Source: a virus. From it: 30,510 nt of DNA. The translations under genes and the position numbers were made by a program. The stretch spans positions 1-30,510 of IMG/VR virus record IMGVR_UViG_3300047678_000819; one strand, written 5' to 3'. Of this stretch, positions 26,301 through 30,510 are shown one piece after another. Position 1 is the first letter of the stretch. Each line of letters begins with the position of its first letter. The notes under the pieces were generated by a model. The model worked only from the letters and a program-made list of their open reading frames with translations. It had not been told where the DNA came from and ran no database searches.

Positions 26301-28226
26301 TTAGAACCGGCCCCAAGTCCGTCTCCGGGCAGGGCGGGCCTGCGGACGCGATCCGGCTGGCGCGGCCGGAGTAGCCGGAGATGGTGTCTCCGGAGCCTTC
26401 GGCACTCCCATGCGGTCTTCGATTGCCTGCCAGTGTTTCTCCTGGTAGCGATCCAACCCGATCCGACTCGCCGCCGCCCGAGCGTAGACCCGGCAATCCA
26501 GCGCCTCGTTGCGTTCGCGCATCTTCTGCCACTCGTGACGCCGGTAGCCTTTCACGATCTTTGTGACCAGTTGCTCGGCGGTGATCTGCTTGAAGTACTC
26601 TTCGCTGTATCGCGGGAAGTGGCAGTAGCCGGGTGGGAAGGATTGCCCTTGCTGGAGGTCTTCGTCGGTGGGTCGTTCCAGGCGCAGCCAGCGGTACAAC
26701 TCCTCCTTCGCCATGCCGGAGTTGACCGGCCAGACTTTGACGCCGCGCTTGATCTTCGCGCCGAGCGGTCCGATTTCAATCGGCGCTGGGTTGCCCAGGA
26801 GCGCTGCGGCCCGCGAGTCACCCTTGATCACGACTACGCGATGACCCTGTTTCCGGGCCCATGTGTAGACCTCCGTCGCCGCGTACCCGGAATCCACCGC
26901 GAGTTGTGTAATCGGTACTTCGAGGCCGCTGGCACTCGTGAACGTTTCATTCAGCAGCCCGGTGAGTCTGTCCCACACCTGCGGGCGCGATGTGTCGCCC
27001 TCGATCACGCGGTAGTCGATGGACCACGATTCCTTCCCACGTCCCCACGCTACGACTTCGACTTCGATGCGGTCCTTCTGAACGTCCGCACCGGCTGTCA
27101 GGAAAAGACCGCCACGTGGGATGATGCCGGTCTTGTATTCCTCGCGCCGGTCATAGAGCGGCTTCCAGTCTGGCGCTTCGCCCAGCAGCGTCCATGTCTC
27201 GCCGAGCACCGTGTTGACGAAAACTTGAAGCAGCGATGAATTCTTTTGCGCCTGCTCGAACTGCTTGGCGGCGTCGCCCCACGAGAACCAGCCGACCGGG
27301 CTGTAGAGGCTGGAGATGTGGAAGCCAGCCGTCTTGCCATCGCCTTTCGCGCCTGCGCGCCACTCGCCGCGTGCCAGCATCGACTGCTTCTGGTGGTTGC
27401 GAATCTCCTGGCCGCAATGCTCGCAGACATAGGCAGCGCTTTGCGGATCGCCCTTCGGCCACCGGAGCTGCGCGAACTTCAGGATCTGGAACTCGCGGCA
27501 TGTCGGGCATGGCACCCAGTACTTCCGCTGGTCGCTCTCTTCATATGCCGCCTCGATCCGGCTCATGCCGGTAATCTTCGGCGTCGACACCAGAAATACT
27601 TTGCGGCACGCGAATGTCCGCGTGCGCGCCATCGCCAGCGTGATCGGATCGCCCTCGCCTTCTACATCGCCGGGATACGCGTCCACCTCGTCGAGGAACA
27701 GGTACCGCGCCGCCATCGACCGCAAGCCGACCGCGCTGTTCGCGCCGGTCATCACCAGCACGCCGCCCGGAAAATCCTTCGACAGAACGGTGTTGCCCGA
27801 ATCGCGCGACCGGGGATCGCGGACGAGCTTTCGTAGCACTTCCGACTCCTCGATCAGCGGCTCGATGCGCTGCTTCGAGTTGCGCTTGGCCATCTCGACG
27901 GTGGGTTGCACCGACATCATCGGACCAGGCGCCTGGTGGATCACGTACCCCATCCAGTTGTTGCCGCACTCCGTGCCGCCGATCTGCGCGCCTTTCATGA
28001 ATGCCACGCGCTCGATCAACGAGGACGGCGAAAGGCAGTCCATGATCTCGCGCAAGTACGGTGTCCGCTCCGTGCGCCAGCGCCCGTGTTCTGCGGATGC
28101 GCGTTGCGAGAGCCAGCGGTAGCGGTCGGCCCACTGCGAGATCGTGAGCAGCGGGTCCGGTCGCGCGCCAGCCGCCGCAGCGGCAGCGTAGATCTCGTCA
28201 GCCGTTAGATTCGTCGGCAAAATCAT
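26301..28226 (-). CDS. terminase large subunit, GpA family
   Basis: This 641-aa protein is the packaging motor and nuclease. The N-terminal ATPase has a Walker A-like 'GAQIGGTE' (79-86), preceded by 'ERVAFMK', and a Walker B 'YLFLDEVDAYPG' with D179-E180. Before it come 'TISQWADRYRWLS' and 'GRWRTERTPYLREIMD', hallmarks of GpA. A zinc-knuckle segment near residues 235-280 ('CPTCREF', 'CEHCGQEI') is frequent in this family. The nuclease half contains 'GADVQKDRIEVEVVAWGRG' near 370 and 'LAVDSGYAATEVYTWARK' near 440. The C-terminus is Pro/Arg-rich. ATG 28226 overlaps the small-subunit gene by 29 bp. The Walker A glycine arrangement (GG instead of GK) is a known variation to check. Confidence 0.92.
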   Translation of the reverse strand: MILPTNLTADEIYAAAAAAGARPDPLLTISQWADRYRWLSQRASAEHGRWRTERTPYLREIMDCLSPSSLIERVAFMKGAQIGGTECGNNWMGYVIHQAPGPMMSVQPTVEMAKRNSKQRIEPLIEESEVLRKLVRDPRSRDSGNTVLSKDFPGGVLVMTGANSAVGLRSMAARYLFLDEVDAYPGDVEGEGDPITLAMARTRTFACRKVFLVSTPKITGMSRIEAAYEESDQRKYWVPCPTCREFQILKFAQLRWPKGDPQSAAYVCEHCGQEIRNHQKQSMLARGEWRAGAKGDGKTAGFHISSLYSPVGWFSWGDAAKQFEQAQKNSSLLQVFVNTVLGETWTLLGEAPDWKPLYDRREEYKTGIIPRGGLFLTAGADVQKDRIEVEVVAWGRGKESWSIDYRVIEGDTSRPQVWDRLTGLLNETFTSASGLEVPITQLAVDSGYAATEVYTWARKQGHRVVVIKGDSRAAALLGNPAPIEIGPLGAKIKRGVKVWPVNSGMAKEELYRWLRLERPTDEDLQQGQSFPPGYCHFPRYSEEYFKQITAEQLVTKIVKGYRRHEWQKMRERNEALDCRVYARAAASRIGLDRYQEKHWQAIEDRMGVPKAPETPSPATPAAPAGSRPQARPARRRTWGRF

Positions 28227-28689
28227 TCAGAGCTTTCCGGATTTCCGTGGTCAGGAGCGCATGCACCGTGGCCTCTACGGTTTCGGCGGCAAGCATCGCC
28301 GCCAGCCGGTCGGGGATGTTGATCATGGCATCGCGAAACTGGCGGAACTTGTTGAAGGCGGCGACCTGAACCTGTTCGCCTGAGACGAGCTTCGCGATCC
28401 GTTCCTCGTAATCGATCTTGGCGAGGCGCGCCTGATAGTGCTCGCGCACCGCCCGCGCCTTCGTATACTGCGATGCGCCGAAGACCTCGCCGTCTTCTTC
28501 CGGCTGGCCACGCCGGTCAACGGGTGGCGCTTGTGTTTGGGTGTTGCGCGCCCACTCCGCGTCGGCAATCTCGGAATCGATCTGGCCGTTGGGCAACGTG
28601 TGGATGCGGCCGCTCCCGATGGCCTTCTGGACGGTGCTGGCCGAGACTCCGCGGTGGCGGGCGTAGGCCCGTTGGCTCATGACTGGCAT
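28198..28689 (-). CDS. terminase small subunit (Nu1-like)
   Basis: This 163-aa protein has an N-terminal helix-turn-helix-like region of winged type, 'SQRAYARHRGVSASTVQKAI', then 'GRIHTLPNGQIDSEIADAEW', as in Nu1-type DNA-binding subunits (also seen as phage 'DNA packaging' proteins). After a linker come 'SQYTKARAVREHYQARLAKI' and 'FRQFRDAMINIPDRLAAMLA', a long helical oligomerisation region of the type in GpA-associated small subunits. It should recognise the packaging site and load the large subunit. The start is ATG 28689; ATG 28680 (MSQRAY) is a possible alternative. Upstream is the divergent control region with the leader repeat. Confidence 0.85.
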   Translation of the reverse strand: MPVMSQRAYARHRGVSASTVQKAIGSGRIHTLPNGQIDSEIADAEWARNTQTQAPPVDRRGQPEEDGEVFGASQYTKARAVREHYQARLAKIDYEERIAKLVSGEQVQVAAFNKFRQFRDAMINIPDRLAAMLAAETVEATVHALLTTEIRKALNDFADESNG

Positions 28690-28711: not shown

Positions 28712-28749
28712 CTTGCCTTCCGGGGCCACCGGAGTGATGAATCGTCATG
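28712..28749 (+). repeat. 38-bp leader repeat, copy 1
   Basis: This copy matches 29291-29328 at 35 of 38 positions. It contains the hairpin TCCGG-(5)-CCGGA, with GGAG at its end, followed by a small ATGA-ATCG-TCAT inverted repeat. All three mismatches fall in the 5-nt loop. It sits 33 bp before ATG 28783 and about 22 bp from the divergent terminase start. Confidence 0.7.
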
Positions 28750-28782
28750 CGCGGATCAACCGCCGAAAGGATAAACACCTCG

Positions 28783-29223
28783 ATGAAGAACGCAGAAGCT
28801 ACCACGACCACAGAATCCGCCGCCGTTGCGGAACAGGGCGCGCACGTCGCGCCGGAGAAGGCCGCCTCGAAGAAGGCTGCCAGCCAGAAGAAGGGCGCGC
28901 CCAAAGCCAACAAGGGCGCGAAGAAACCTGCCACGCAGGCCAAGGCCGCACCGAAGAAGCAGGCCAAGGAGAAGGTCGCCAGCAAGAGCGCCACCAAAGT
29001 GAAGGAGGCTAAGGTGCCGCGCGAGTTCTCGAAAAAGAACATCGTCCTGGAACTCTTGCGCCGGAAGGACGGCGCGACGATGGCCGAGATCGCCAAGGCC
29101 ACCGACTGGCAGAACCACAGCATCCGGGGCTTCATCAGCGGAAACCTGACCAAGAAGATGGGCCTCACGGTCGAGTCCACGAAGAACGAGGCGGGGGAGC
29201 GGACCTACAAGATCGGCAAGTAG
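28783..29223 (+). CDS. DUF3489 protein with histone-H1-like Lys/Ala tail
   Basis: This 146-aa protein is on the strand opposite to the phage late genes. The C-terminal part (about 83-146) matches DUF3489: 'IVLELLRRKDGATMAEIAKA', 'TDWQNHSIRGFISGNL', 'KKMGLTVESTK', 'GERTYKI'. This is a small winged-helix-like domain presumed to bind DNA. The N-terminal 80 residues are low complexity, with repeated Lys, Ala, Gln and Pro blocks ('KKAASQKKGAPKA', 'AKAAPKKQAKEK'), as in histone-H1 tails. ATG 28783 is preferred (AAAGGA 11 nt upstream); the frame is open to an ATG at 28747, the end of the repeat. A strong terminator follows at 29243-29270. Function is unknown, perhaps regulatory or nucleoid-like. Confidence 0.85.
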   Translation: MKNAEATTTTESAAVAEQGAHVAPEKAASKKAASQKKGAPKANKGAKKPATQAKAAPKKQAKEKVASKSATKVKEAKVPREFSKKNIVLELLRRKDGATMAEIAKATDWQNHSIRGFISGNLTKKMGLTVESTKNEAGERTYKIGK

Positions 29224-29242
29224 GAACGCCTGCCTCCCAATC

Positions 29243-29270
29243 AGCCGCCTGGAAACGGGCGGCTTTTTTA
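29243..29270 (+). terminator. rho-independent terminator after the DUF3489 gene
   Basis: AGCCGCC (29243-29249) pairs perfectly with GGCGGCT (29258-29264) across an 8-nt loop, and a run of six T follows. It lies 20 bp after the stop codon of the plus-strand gene. It separates this gene from the next plus-strand unit. Confidence 0.88.
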
Positions 29271-29290
29271 CGGCACGTCGCGATTATTGA

Positions 29291-29328
29291 CTTGCCTTCC
29301 GGTCGCACCGGAGTGATGAATCGTCATG
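29291..29328 (+). repeat. 38-bp leader repeat, copy 2
   Basis: This copy differs from 28712-28749 only at three bases in the loop of the TCCGG/CCGGA hairpin. It ends 2 bp before ATG 29331. TTGACT at 29287-29292 could be a -35 element, but no matching -10 is visible at normal spacing. Confidence 0.7.
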
Positions 29329-29330
29329 TC

Positions 29331-29642
29331 ATGAAAACCACCACCAAGAAGCAGAACCAATACAACGGATTCGCCGTCGAGATTACCGACGCCACCGACC
29401 TCGGCCTCGCGATGCTGATCGCCGAGTCCGAAGACGGCCAGTATGAGCCGGTCGCCGTAGTGGCCAACGTGGGCGAGGCGAGAGAGATCGCCAGCGACGA
29501 CATGGCCTCCCGGATGCGCCGCCTGGAGCACGGCGAATCGCCGCTTTGCCCATGGGTCTACAAGGTCTGGGCGCGCGGAATCGACGGCGAACACCGGATC
29601 GCCTGCGAGATCAAGGACGCCACCCGGACCACCAAGCGCTAA
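29331..29642 (+). CDS. small unknown protein sharing the leader repeat
   Basis: This 103-aa protein reads 'MKTTTKKQNQYNGFAVEI' and continues with 'DATDLGLAMLIAESEDGQYE', 'PVAVVANVGEAREIASDDM', 'WVYKVWARGIDGEHRIACEI' and 'KDATRTTKR'. It alternates strands and helices with a Thr/Lys-rich N-terminus and looks like a small soluble alpha-beta protein. I recognise no family. ATG 29331 gives the simplest start; an in-frame ATG at 29316 inside the repeat is possible and would add MNRHV. It lies in the plus-strand island with the DUF3489 gene and shares its leader repeat, which suggests common control. The downstream hairpin at 29655-29684 may end its transcript. Confidence 0.75.
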   Translation: MKTTTKKQNQYNGFAVEITDATDLGLAMLIAESEDGQYEPVAVVANVGEAREIASDDMASRMRRLEHGESPLCPWVYKVWARGIDGEHRIACEIKDATRTTKR

Positions 29643-29684: not shown

Positions 29685-29882
29685 TCCTGCTTCTGCTCCC
29701 TCAAGAATCCGCAGTTCCGCCGACCAATCCGACAGCGCCAAGCAAAGGCCCGCAACATCCGGATGACCAGCCAGCAGCAACGCCTCGACGGACGCGATTT
29801 CCGCGCGGCACCTCGCCACCTCACGCCGCCACTGCGCTTCGCTCTGCGGCGACCGCGCTGTAGCTTCTCCCGTCGGCTTCAA
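29667..29882 (-). CDS. small phage protein, 71 aa, unknown
   Basis: This is a helical 71-aa protein with 'SEAQWRREVARCRAEIASVE', 'ALLLAGHPDVAGLCLALSDW' and 'SAELRILEGAEAG'. The 'AEI..vEa.llaG.PDv.GLcLAL.DWsaEL' pattern looks familiar from small proteins beside phage methyltransferases or terminases, but no function is known to me. The start is TTG 29882 with GGAAG about 5 nt upstream. It overlaps the 3' end of the methyltransferase gene by 62 bp in another frame. The alternative is that it is only a chance frame, but the regular helix pattern argues for a gene. Confidence 0.6.
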   Translation of the reverse strand: MKPTGEATARSPQSEAQWRREVARCRAEIASVEALLLAGHPDVAGLCLALSDWSAELRILEGAEAGPPPDG

Positions 29883-30510
29883 GCTTCGCTTCCTGCCCAG
29901 TGAATTCCTGCCATCGCCGGACGATCACGTCACAGTACTTTGGCTCCAGTTCAATCACTCGCGCCTGCCGTCCTGTTTTCTGGCACGCGATTAATGTGGT
30001 TCCGGACCCACCGAAGGGATCGAGAATCGTATCGCGCGTCTTGCTGCTGTTCCGGAGCGCGCGCTCGACGAGTTCCACCGGCTTCATGGTCGGGTGCTCC
30101 AGACTCGCCATGGGCCGCTTGATGAACCACACGTCGCCCTGGTTCCGGTCGCCGCACCAGAAGTGCTGCGTCCCGTCGCGCCAGCCATACAGGATCGGCT
30201 CATACATCCTCTGGTAGTCCGACCGGCCCAACGTGAAATGGTGCTTCGCCCAGATCACGAACGTAGACCAGTGGCCTCCGGCATCGGTGAACGCCCGGAA
30301 AAGCGTGTGCAGTTCCGACGAGGACATGCACATGTAGATCGCGCCCTTCGTCATCGCGAGCATGTTGGCCGAGGCCTCGCGCAGGAACTCATAGAACTTG
30401 CCGCCGAGAGCATCGTTGTCGATGGTGAGCTTCTTCGCCGTCTTGCCTTCATAGGCGACGTTGTACGGTGGATCGGTGAACGCCATGTCAGCGAGCCCGC
30501 CAGCCAAGAC
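29821..30510 (-). CDS. DNA methyltransferase, beta class (N6-adenine or N4-cytosine), partial
   Basis: The gene runs off the right edge, so its N-terminus is missing and about 229 residues are visible. The motif order is that of beta-class DNA methyltransferases: catalytic 'TDPPYNV' (motif IV) at the start, 'HPTMKPVEL' in the middle, and the SAM-binding 'LDPFGGSGTTLIACQ' (motif I) near the C-terminus. It belongs to the N6_N4 Mtase family. Phage versions often carry an upstream ParB-like domain, which would be outside the window. No cognate restriction enzyme is visible, so it is probably a solitary phage methyltransferase for host-mimic modification or regulation. The target sequence is unknown. 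The 3' end overlaps the 71-aa gene. Confidence 0.92.
   Translation of the reverse strand, partial: VLAGGLADMAFTDPPYNVAYEGKTAKKLTIDNDALGGKFYEFLREASANMLAMTKGAIYMCMSSSELHTLFRAFTDAGGHWSTFVIWAKHHFTLGRSDYQRMYEPILYGWRDGTQHFWCGDRNQGDVWFIKRPMASLEHPTMKPVELVERALRNSSKTRDTILDPFGGSGTTLIACQKTGRQARVIELEPKYCDVIVRRWQEFTGQEAKLEADGRSYSAVAAERSAVAA

Follow-up and report, generated by a model that had tools for sequence, protein, structure and literature searches.

A two-block element before DUF3489 and neighbouring phage accessory genes as a probable promoter-operator

In phage lambda, several phage promoters with poor σ70 hexamers answer to one phage DNA-binding protein, CII, whose sites are TTGC repeats around the −35 position, and one of these promoters serves the integrase. 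Other described systems attach small regulatory sequences to accessory genes. As far as the accessible part of their description goes, the SAS of Cluster K mycobacteriophages are 13-bp sequences located at the ribosome site, for which a translational role has been proposed; SAS and ESAS are short asymmetric repeats that precede numerous small non-structural genes from different families in these phages, for the most part in a single orientation, and the host genome has almost none of them (PMC3203893). Moron genes, in the portion of the source that is accessible, have their own promoter and are oriented against the lytic genes (PMC7067206). In anti-CRISPR loci, according to the accessible part of the reports, accessory genes with their own promoter stand beside a helix-turn-helix gene, aca, that controls that promoter.

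The element described here lies in a window of 30,510 nucleotides, the whole stretch of DNA that was analysed (IMG/VR record IMGVR_UViG_3300047678_000819), and searches of the openly accessible literature gave no description of it. It resembles SAS and ESAS in the traits listed above, but it differs in sequence and position from GGGATAGGAGCCC at the ribosome site: it consists of two blocks at fixed spacing before a likely transcript start, some of the genes behind it lack a ribosome site, and a single gene for a predicted DNA-binding protein, DUF3489, is linked to the elements. The lambda arrangement would recur here with other sites and an unrelated protein, and DUF3489 may activate or repress. 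The likeness to Aca loci is one of arrangement, whereas here each gene has its own copy of the promoter and DUF3489 is at most a candidate Aca family; as to autoregulation of the Aca type, the sequences show linkage and co-divergence of DUF3489 and the element, and neither an anti-CRISPR function nor any other sign of defence or anti-defence activity was found. The window agrees with morons in anatomy, with a promoter and a terminator of its own and an orientation opposite to the late genes, but here several cassettes share one probable promoter-operator type that is conserved between phyla.

The original prediction described two 38-bp copies of a repeat, at 28712-28749 and 29291-29328, and both positions hold. 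The copies are identical in 35 of 38 bases, the three mismatches all fall in the loop between the TCCGG arms, and a second inverted repeat (ATGA..TCAT) can be drawn in them as had been proposed. Both precede plus-strand ORFs amid minus-strand phage genes, with the large and small terminase subunits on one side and a DNA methyltransferase on the other (Table 1). The element pattern has two matches in the window and none in 100 dinucleotide shuffles, by which a chance origin of the two copies is rejected, and the simplified pattern TTG-N17-AG[CT]G[AT]T finds the same two matches only. Exact relatives in bacterial genomes are all in Acidobacteria bins (12 of 12 stretches), several of them named Bryobacterales or Solibacter; the source record is a viral contig, and the window copies sit in a prophage of a soil bacterium.

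Table 1. Features around the two element copies (window coordinates; transcription starts are predictions)
Feature	Position	Strand	Remark
Element copy 1, TTGCCTT-N9-CCGGAGTGATGAAT	28713..28742	+	upstream of DUF3489; −35-like block 28712-28717, −10-like block 28736-28742
Element copy 2	29292..29321	+	upstream of 103-aa gene; −35-like block 29291-29296, −10-like block 29315-29321
Predicted transcription start, copy 1	28749	+	element position 37
Predicted transcription start, copy 2	29328	+	element position 37; start codon 3 nt on
Small leader hairpin GCGG-ATCAA-CCGC	28751..28763	+	2 nt inside predicted 5' end, 2 nt before AAAGGA (28766-28771)
DUF3489 (PF11994) gene, 146 aa	28783..29223	+	Lys/Ala/Pro-rich tail and predicted winged-helix domain
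Intrinsic terminator-like hairpin with T run	29243..29270 (hairpin 29243-29264)	+	3' of DUF3489 gene, ~20 nt before −35-like block of copy 2
103-aa gene	29331..29642	+	downstream of copy 2
Terminase small subunit gene (phrog_57)	28198..28689	-	divergent neighbour
DNA methyltransferase gene (N6_N4_Mtase, phrog_498)	29821..30507	-	convergent neighbour, cut by window end

The conserved part of the element is not the TCCGG hairpin, whose stem had been taken as exactly kept, but two blocks at a fixed distance, CTTGC[CT]TT and CCGGAGTGATGAAT, with nine free bases between them. In 85 listed copies including those of the window, and later in 126–130 distinct contexts, the TCCGG arm varies, CTTGC[CT]TT is constant and CCGGAGTGATGAAT always stands nine bases on; exact-pattern searches such as that with the 21-mer CCGGAGTGATGAATCGTCATG, found in 69 viral-contig stretches, favour close copies. 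After removal of identical contexts 130 copies remained, one of which (L072) was dropped as a probable chance match before the stems were counted and a PWM was built from 96 distinct 30-mers. All five Watson-Crick pairs of the stem are present in just 20 of these 96 distinct copies, four pairs in 16 and three or fewer in 60, and a consensus fold of 26 diverse copies has zero pairs, which rules out the hairpin as the conserved unit. The second inverted repeat, ATGAATCGTCAT, occurs in 73 of 129 copies, a share that is inflated because the repeat is part of the exact 21-mer with which one search was made. When copies from the same record are compared (36 pairs), the blocks are 90–94% identical, the nine-base spacer 60% and the positions 11–30 nt upstream 31%, and therefore selection acts on the two blocks and their distance. 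In three records (L045, L028 and L069) the first block of copy 1 has TTTACTT in place of TTGCCTT, which matches letter for letter the first block of the Yuavirus repeat discussed below.

The distance between the two blocks, 17–18 bp, is that between σ70 hexamers. Of the 144 listed DUF3489 genes, 98 have the string TTG-N17-AG[CT]GAT in their upstream region and none has it there on the reverse strand; other spacings of the blocks give 0–20 of 144, the next best being a spacing of 22 that arises partly via TTGACTTG. Among distinct host-order copies (103, aligned), an A/T-biased stretch precedes the first block and position 37, ~7 nt past the second block, is a purine in 98. Compared with an ordinary σ70 promoter, the hexamer spacing of 16–18 bp is present and the −10 hexamer TAnnnT is absent: the second block offers GATGAA or ATGAAT, its fixed A25 and T30 do not fall on positions −11 and −7 of a single hexamer, and a σ70-like consensus scan gave zero matches.

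What follows the element falls into several types. An ORF of at least 60 aa begins with a start codon at positions 38–40 in 60 of the 199 distinct copies, and one of these has a ribosome-site-like string in reach; of the rest, 66 combine a ribosome site with a start further on, 53 have an ATG at 34–35, which is ambiguous as it falls within the CATG of the element itself, one has an ATG at 37 and 19 have neither. The ATG of ATGAAT was considered as a start codon and rejected, being in frame in several copies and separated by a frame-breaking stop in others (e.g., the CGTCATGTATGAAG type), and GGAG was rejected as a Shine-Dalgarno sequence because in copies of the copy-2 type it is too distant from the start codon (15–17 nt). 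Where a ribosome site is present, it tends to be preceded by a small hairpin: 50 of 67 such leaders have a stem of four or more pairs whose end is no more than 8 nt from the ribosome site, versus 242 of 1340 mononucleotide shuffles. These stems have many different sequences, with compensating changes among relatives, and in the window GCGG/CCGC precedes the ribosome site of DUF3489. If transcription starts at position 37, this hairpin would be the very 5' end of the DUF3489 mRNA, a place where hairpins protect transcripts. A start only 3 nt before the start codon of the 103-aa gene would make its mRNA nearly leaderless, and with the terminator ~20 nt ahead of copy 2 there is hardly any space for another promoter. 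The anatomy supports well the reading of both copies as promoters, with position 37 as the putative start.

Further copies were sought in related genomes, as the original prediction had suggested, and were found. With up to two mismatches allowed, the element is present in 32 of 200 host-order genomes and its reversed control in none. Among the matches listed, 40 of the 52 host-order copies have a same-strand DUF3489 domain no more than 2.4 kb away, and for the other 12 no same-strand DUF3489 is listed within 4 kb. From the other side, of the 144 listed DUF3489 genes in host-order genomes, 105 have a copy with a PWM score of at least 10 within ~1.6 kb upstream, whereas the reverse strand gave none and the shuffles 1 of 432. 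These 144 are 150 listed genes, of at least 150 that exist, minus six at contig starts; at least 75 of the 105 were absent from the search that helped to train the PWM, and 30 were in it. The remaining 39 genes score below 10, and 19 of the 144 have less than 700 nt upstream. In 61 of the 144 regions a stop falls in the last 60 nt, as the slices were one base too long, which affects the ORF column and, by one base, the distances, and not the element scan. Viral records agree with this picture, since 36 of 37 records with the element also hold DUF3489 (the 37 being the window and 36 of ~84 viral records, mostly the longer ones) and the lone exception is about what chance would give for that pattern by our own estimate.

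Outside such loci the element is scarce. In 400 kb of one host genome, read on both strands (0.8 million strand-bases), none was found at a PWM score of at least 5, and the simple pattern had six matches. Together with the 40 of 52 listed copies near DUF3489, this leads to the rejection of a general host promoter and also of a dispersed host repeat, one of the three options first offered. Several contigs hold arrays of elements, with four copies in one contig of G212, five in G202, four in G035 and three in G001. In one locus (L185, 4222-5448) four tandem cassettes have nine-base spacers that are identical in three and one base off in the fourth, near-identity that points to probable recent copying of these cassettes; in other arrays the spacers differ.

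The protein encoded next to copy 1 passes the Pfam DUF3489 cut-off (84.2 bits vs 29.5, positions 3–68 of 68). An AlphaFold2 model of the domain has the order HHH-EE with a mean pLDDT of 84, a predicted winged-helix fold, and Foldseek places MarR-type regulators best (probability 0.99, E 0.03) and histone H5 lower, with no match at E ≤ 0.001. A search of the DUF3489 profile against the sequences of solved structures gave a MarR regulator as the best match, at E 0.17. A weak match between DUF3489 and a CARF model (E 0.0003) was the sole result when the cassette genes were compared with PADLOC and NCBIfam, and is read as a shared winged-helix fold. The accessible part of the literature on DUF3489 contains a fold assignment only. 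The N-terminal half of the window protein (28783-28990) contains much Lys, Ala and Pro; in combination with the winged helix it resembles linker histones H1/H5.

Across 42 upstream loci, the divergence of the blocks from locus to locus follows that of the DUF3489 proteins (r 0.82; partial 0.76 given TerS; 0 of 500 permutations), compared to r 0.48 and a partial of 0.16 given DUF3489 for TerS, which may be more saturated than DUF3489 in these tests. A rank version gives 0.69 for DUF3489 vs 0.21 for TerS, and the spacer follows TerS (0.42) and not DUF3489 (0.10) in the same 42 loci. The elements of the next cassette behave as the upstream ones do, with partials of 0.71 for DUF3489 vs 0.39 for TerS (n=17); both sets are what remained after dropping duplicates and loci without TerS or methyltransferase matches. 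Within the Acidobacteria-like subset the methyltransferase does as well as DUF3489, with both partials at 0.29. Homologues of TerS, TerL or the methyltransferase are also present in 106 of 111 viral DUF3489 loci, so that co-occurrence alone is no proof of a functional link and linkage remains a possible cause.

The same geometry is found in other phyla. The pattern lies upstream of DUF3489 in 78 of 111 viral loci, compared to 3 of 111 on the reverse strand, a count that leans towards the window's kind because the 111 comprise the best 80 of 599 viral relatives and 31 loci from another search. The layout is also that of Acidithiobacillus phage AcaML1 and of proteobacterial prophages, where the core is GCGTTCATA; the element reads TTGGCTT-N9-ACAGCGCGTTCATA in AcaML1 and TTGCTGC-N9-GAAGAGCGTTCATA in Eleftheria. 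Plasmid-borne DUF3489 loci with this kind of element occur in Eleftheria, Roseicitreum, Agarilytica and Bradyrhizobium, with a weaker match in Roseicitreum and Bradyrhizobium, and none was seen at the DUF3489 loci of Paracoccus, Shinella and Endozoicomonas. The gene order terminase, DUF3489 array, methyltransferase is common to AcaML1, Eleftheria and Roseicitreum, the terminase of Eleftheria being just a small-subunit-like gene in the stretch read. In the whole AcaML1 genome the core GCG[AT]TCATA with its first block occurs four times, three of them in the DUF3489 array and one before gp4-gp3-gp2. This fourth copy lies on the minus strand, far from DUF3489 (L473, ~3043), and the gp4-gp3-gp2 operon includes a site-specific recombinase.

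Two further phages with DUF3489, Yuavirus MP1412 and Bordetella phage CN2, have the gene behind a plain σ70-like promoter. In MP1412 this promoter, CTTTACTTCTTCGG-N8-CACTATACTT, recurs at other places in the genome, and it resembles the element in having two blocks, the same −35/−10 distance and one copy upstream of DUF3489. It differs from the element in its true TATACT −10 box and in its copies before many genes, beyond the DUF3489 locus. The Yuavirus promoter may be a second solution, or DUF3489 may not be tied to one promoter type; in the accessible text of the Yuavirus paper, neither "promoter" nor "intergenic" has a match. At least seven such sequences, resembling CTTTACTTCTTC..-CACTATACTT and with two conserved blocks, were seen in MP1412, one of them upstream of DUF3489 (L477 2878, 7726, 10504, 23067, 25095 and 30244, and L478, record position 31467).

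The explanation that we favour, with a probability of roughly 0.6, is that the element is a phage promoter-operator of accessory cassettes with DUF3489 as its likely regulator. The sequences show the element itself, its spacing, its distribution and its coupling to DUF3489. The model proposes that each copy would be the promoter of a one-gene prophage accessory cassette and at the same time a DNA site for a phage-encoded regulator. RNA polymerase would use CTTGC.TT as a −35-like and [G]ATGAAT as a −10-like sequence, 17–18 bp apart, and would start ~7 nt further on. The DUF3489 transcript would then open with its short hairpin followed by the ribosome site, and the second gene, insulated from the DUF3489 gene by the terminator, would be transcribed as a nearly leaderless mRNA, with leaderless translation presumed. 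DUF3489 would act on its own promoter and on those of neighbouring cassettes, and in AcaML1 also on the distant recombinase operon. As the −10-like block has no TAnnnT and the element hardly occurs away from DUF3489 loci, a dedicated factor would be needed, and DUF3489 is the likeliest one because it is a predicted winged-helix DNA-binding protein present at nearly every such locus. As regulator of the element DUF3489 is the best single hypothesis, at about even odds and with binding predicted from sequence; its candidacy as the binding protein, already suggested in the original prediction, has been strengthened by the later data. The asymmetry of the element counts against this reading, being unusual for the site of a homodimeric winged-helix repressor. 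Of the three options that had been proposed, an operator for a phage or host regulator comes closest, and the RNA control element and the dispersed host repeat fall away.

It could be argued that the element is a promoter read by another phage protein or by an alternative σ factor, with DUF3489 as the first passenger gene of the array. Two blocks with σ-factor spacing and poor σ70 hexamers would suit such a factor, DUF3489 is nearly always accompanied by the same phage module and the Yuavirus gene stands behind a different promoter type; near-confinement to DUF3489 loci in the 200 host-order genomes makes a host σ factor with host targets unlikely, and block divergence tracks DUF3489 over TerS, also at the second cassette, so that we regard this alternative as unlikely, though deserving attention. 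An ordinary constitutive promoter for lysogenic moron genes, served by the main RNA polymerase of the host and conserved through recent spread of the cassettes, is improbable: the σ70 spacing, the own promoter, the terminator and the anti-late orientation all fit moron cassettes, but CCGGAGTGATGAAT lacks TAnnnT and escapes the σ70-like scan, blocks stay unchanged where spacer and flanks have diverged, their geometry is kept between phyla and the one host genome scanned has none at the PWM threshold in 400 kb.

Two further alternatives move away from a promoter. The repeated intergenic unit might be a recombination boundary, a homology site for cassette exchange with regulation as a secondary matter, and it does recur before different genes in arrays of three to five cassettes; yet the matched bases amount to ~21 in two blocks around a diverged spacer, and transcription accounts better for the exact spacing and for the purine at position 37, which makes this possibility very slight. 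Slighter still is the chance of an RNA control element, with the TCCGG hairpin or the ATGA..TCAT repeat working at the level of the transcript: both structures can be drawn in the window copies, but neither the pair counts nor the pairless fold favour them, the window has no Rfam family at gathering score, and copy 2 would require a promoter between the terminator and itself. A different, covarying hairpin is the one present in the DUF3489 leader.

The element offers a DNA signature pointing to small accessory (moron) genes that are hard to spot from sequence, and its link to DUF3489 provides a function hypothesis for a domain of uncharacterised role that is present in many phages. A wider proposal, to which we give somewhat less than an even chance, is that DUF3489 is a widespread, unrecognised family of phage transcription switches reading TTG[GC].TT - N9 - ..AG[CT]G[AT]T..AT before its own gene, before accessory-gene arrays flanked by terminase and methyltransferase genes and, in AcaML1 at least, before the recombinase operon, in phages of Acidobacteria, Alpha-, Beta- and Gammaproteobacteria and Acidithiobacillia. 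Under this proposal the element could serve to track down accessory genes in phages. DUF3489 occurs in cultured phages (AcaML1 and the Yuaviruses of Pseudomonas aeruginosa), and therefore laboratory testing is possible. As for the second cassette of the window, the 103-aa protein has no match in Pfam, PHROGs, NCBIfam or PADLOC, and its homologues are present in 20 of the 111 viral DUF3489 loci. Members of the family (NGFAVEITD...CPWVYKVWARG) follow DUF3489 repeatedly, both in arrays of the Acidobacteria type and in G202.
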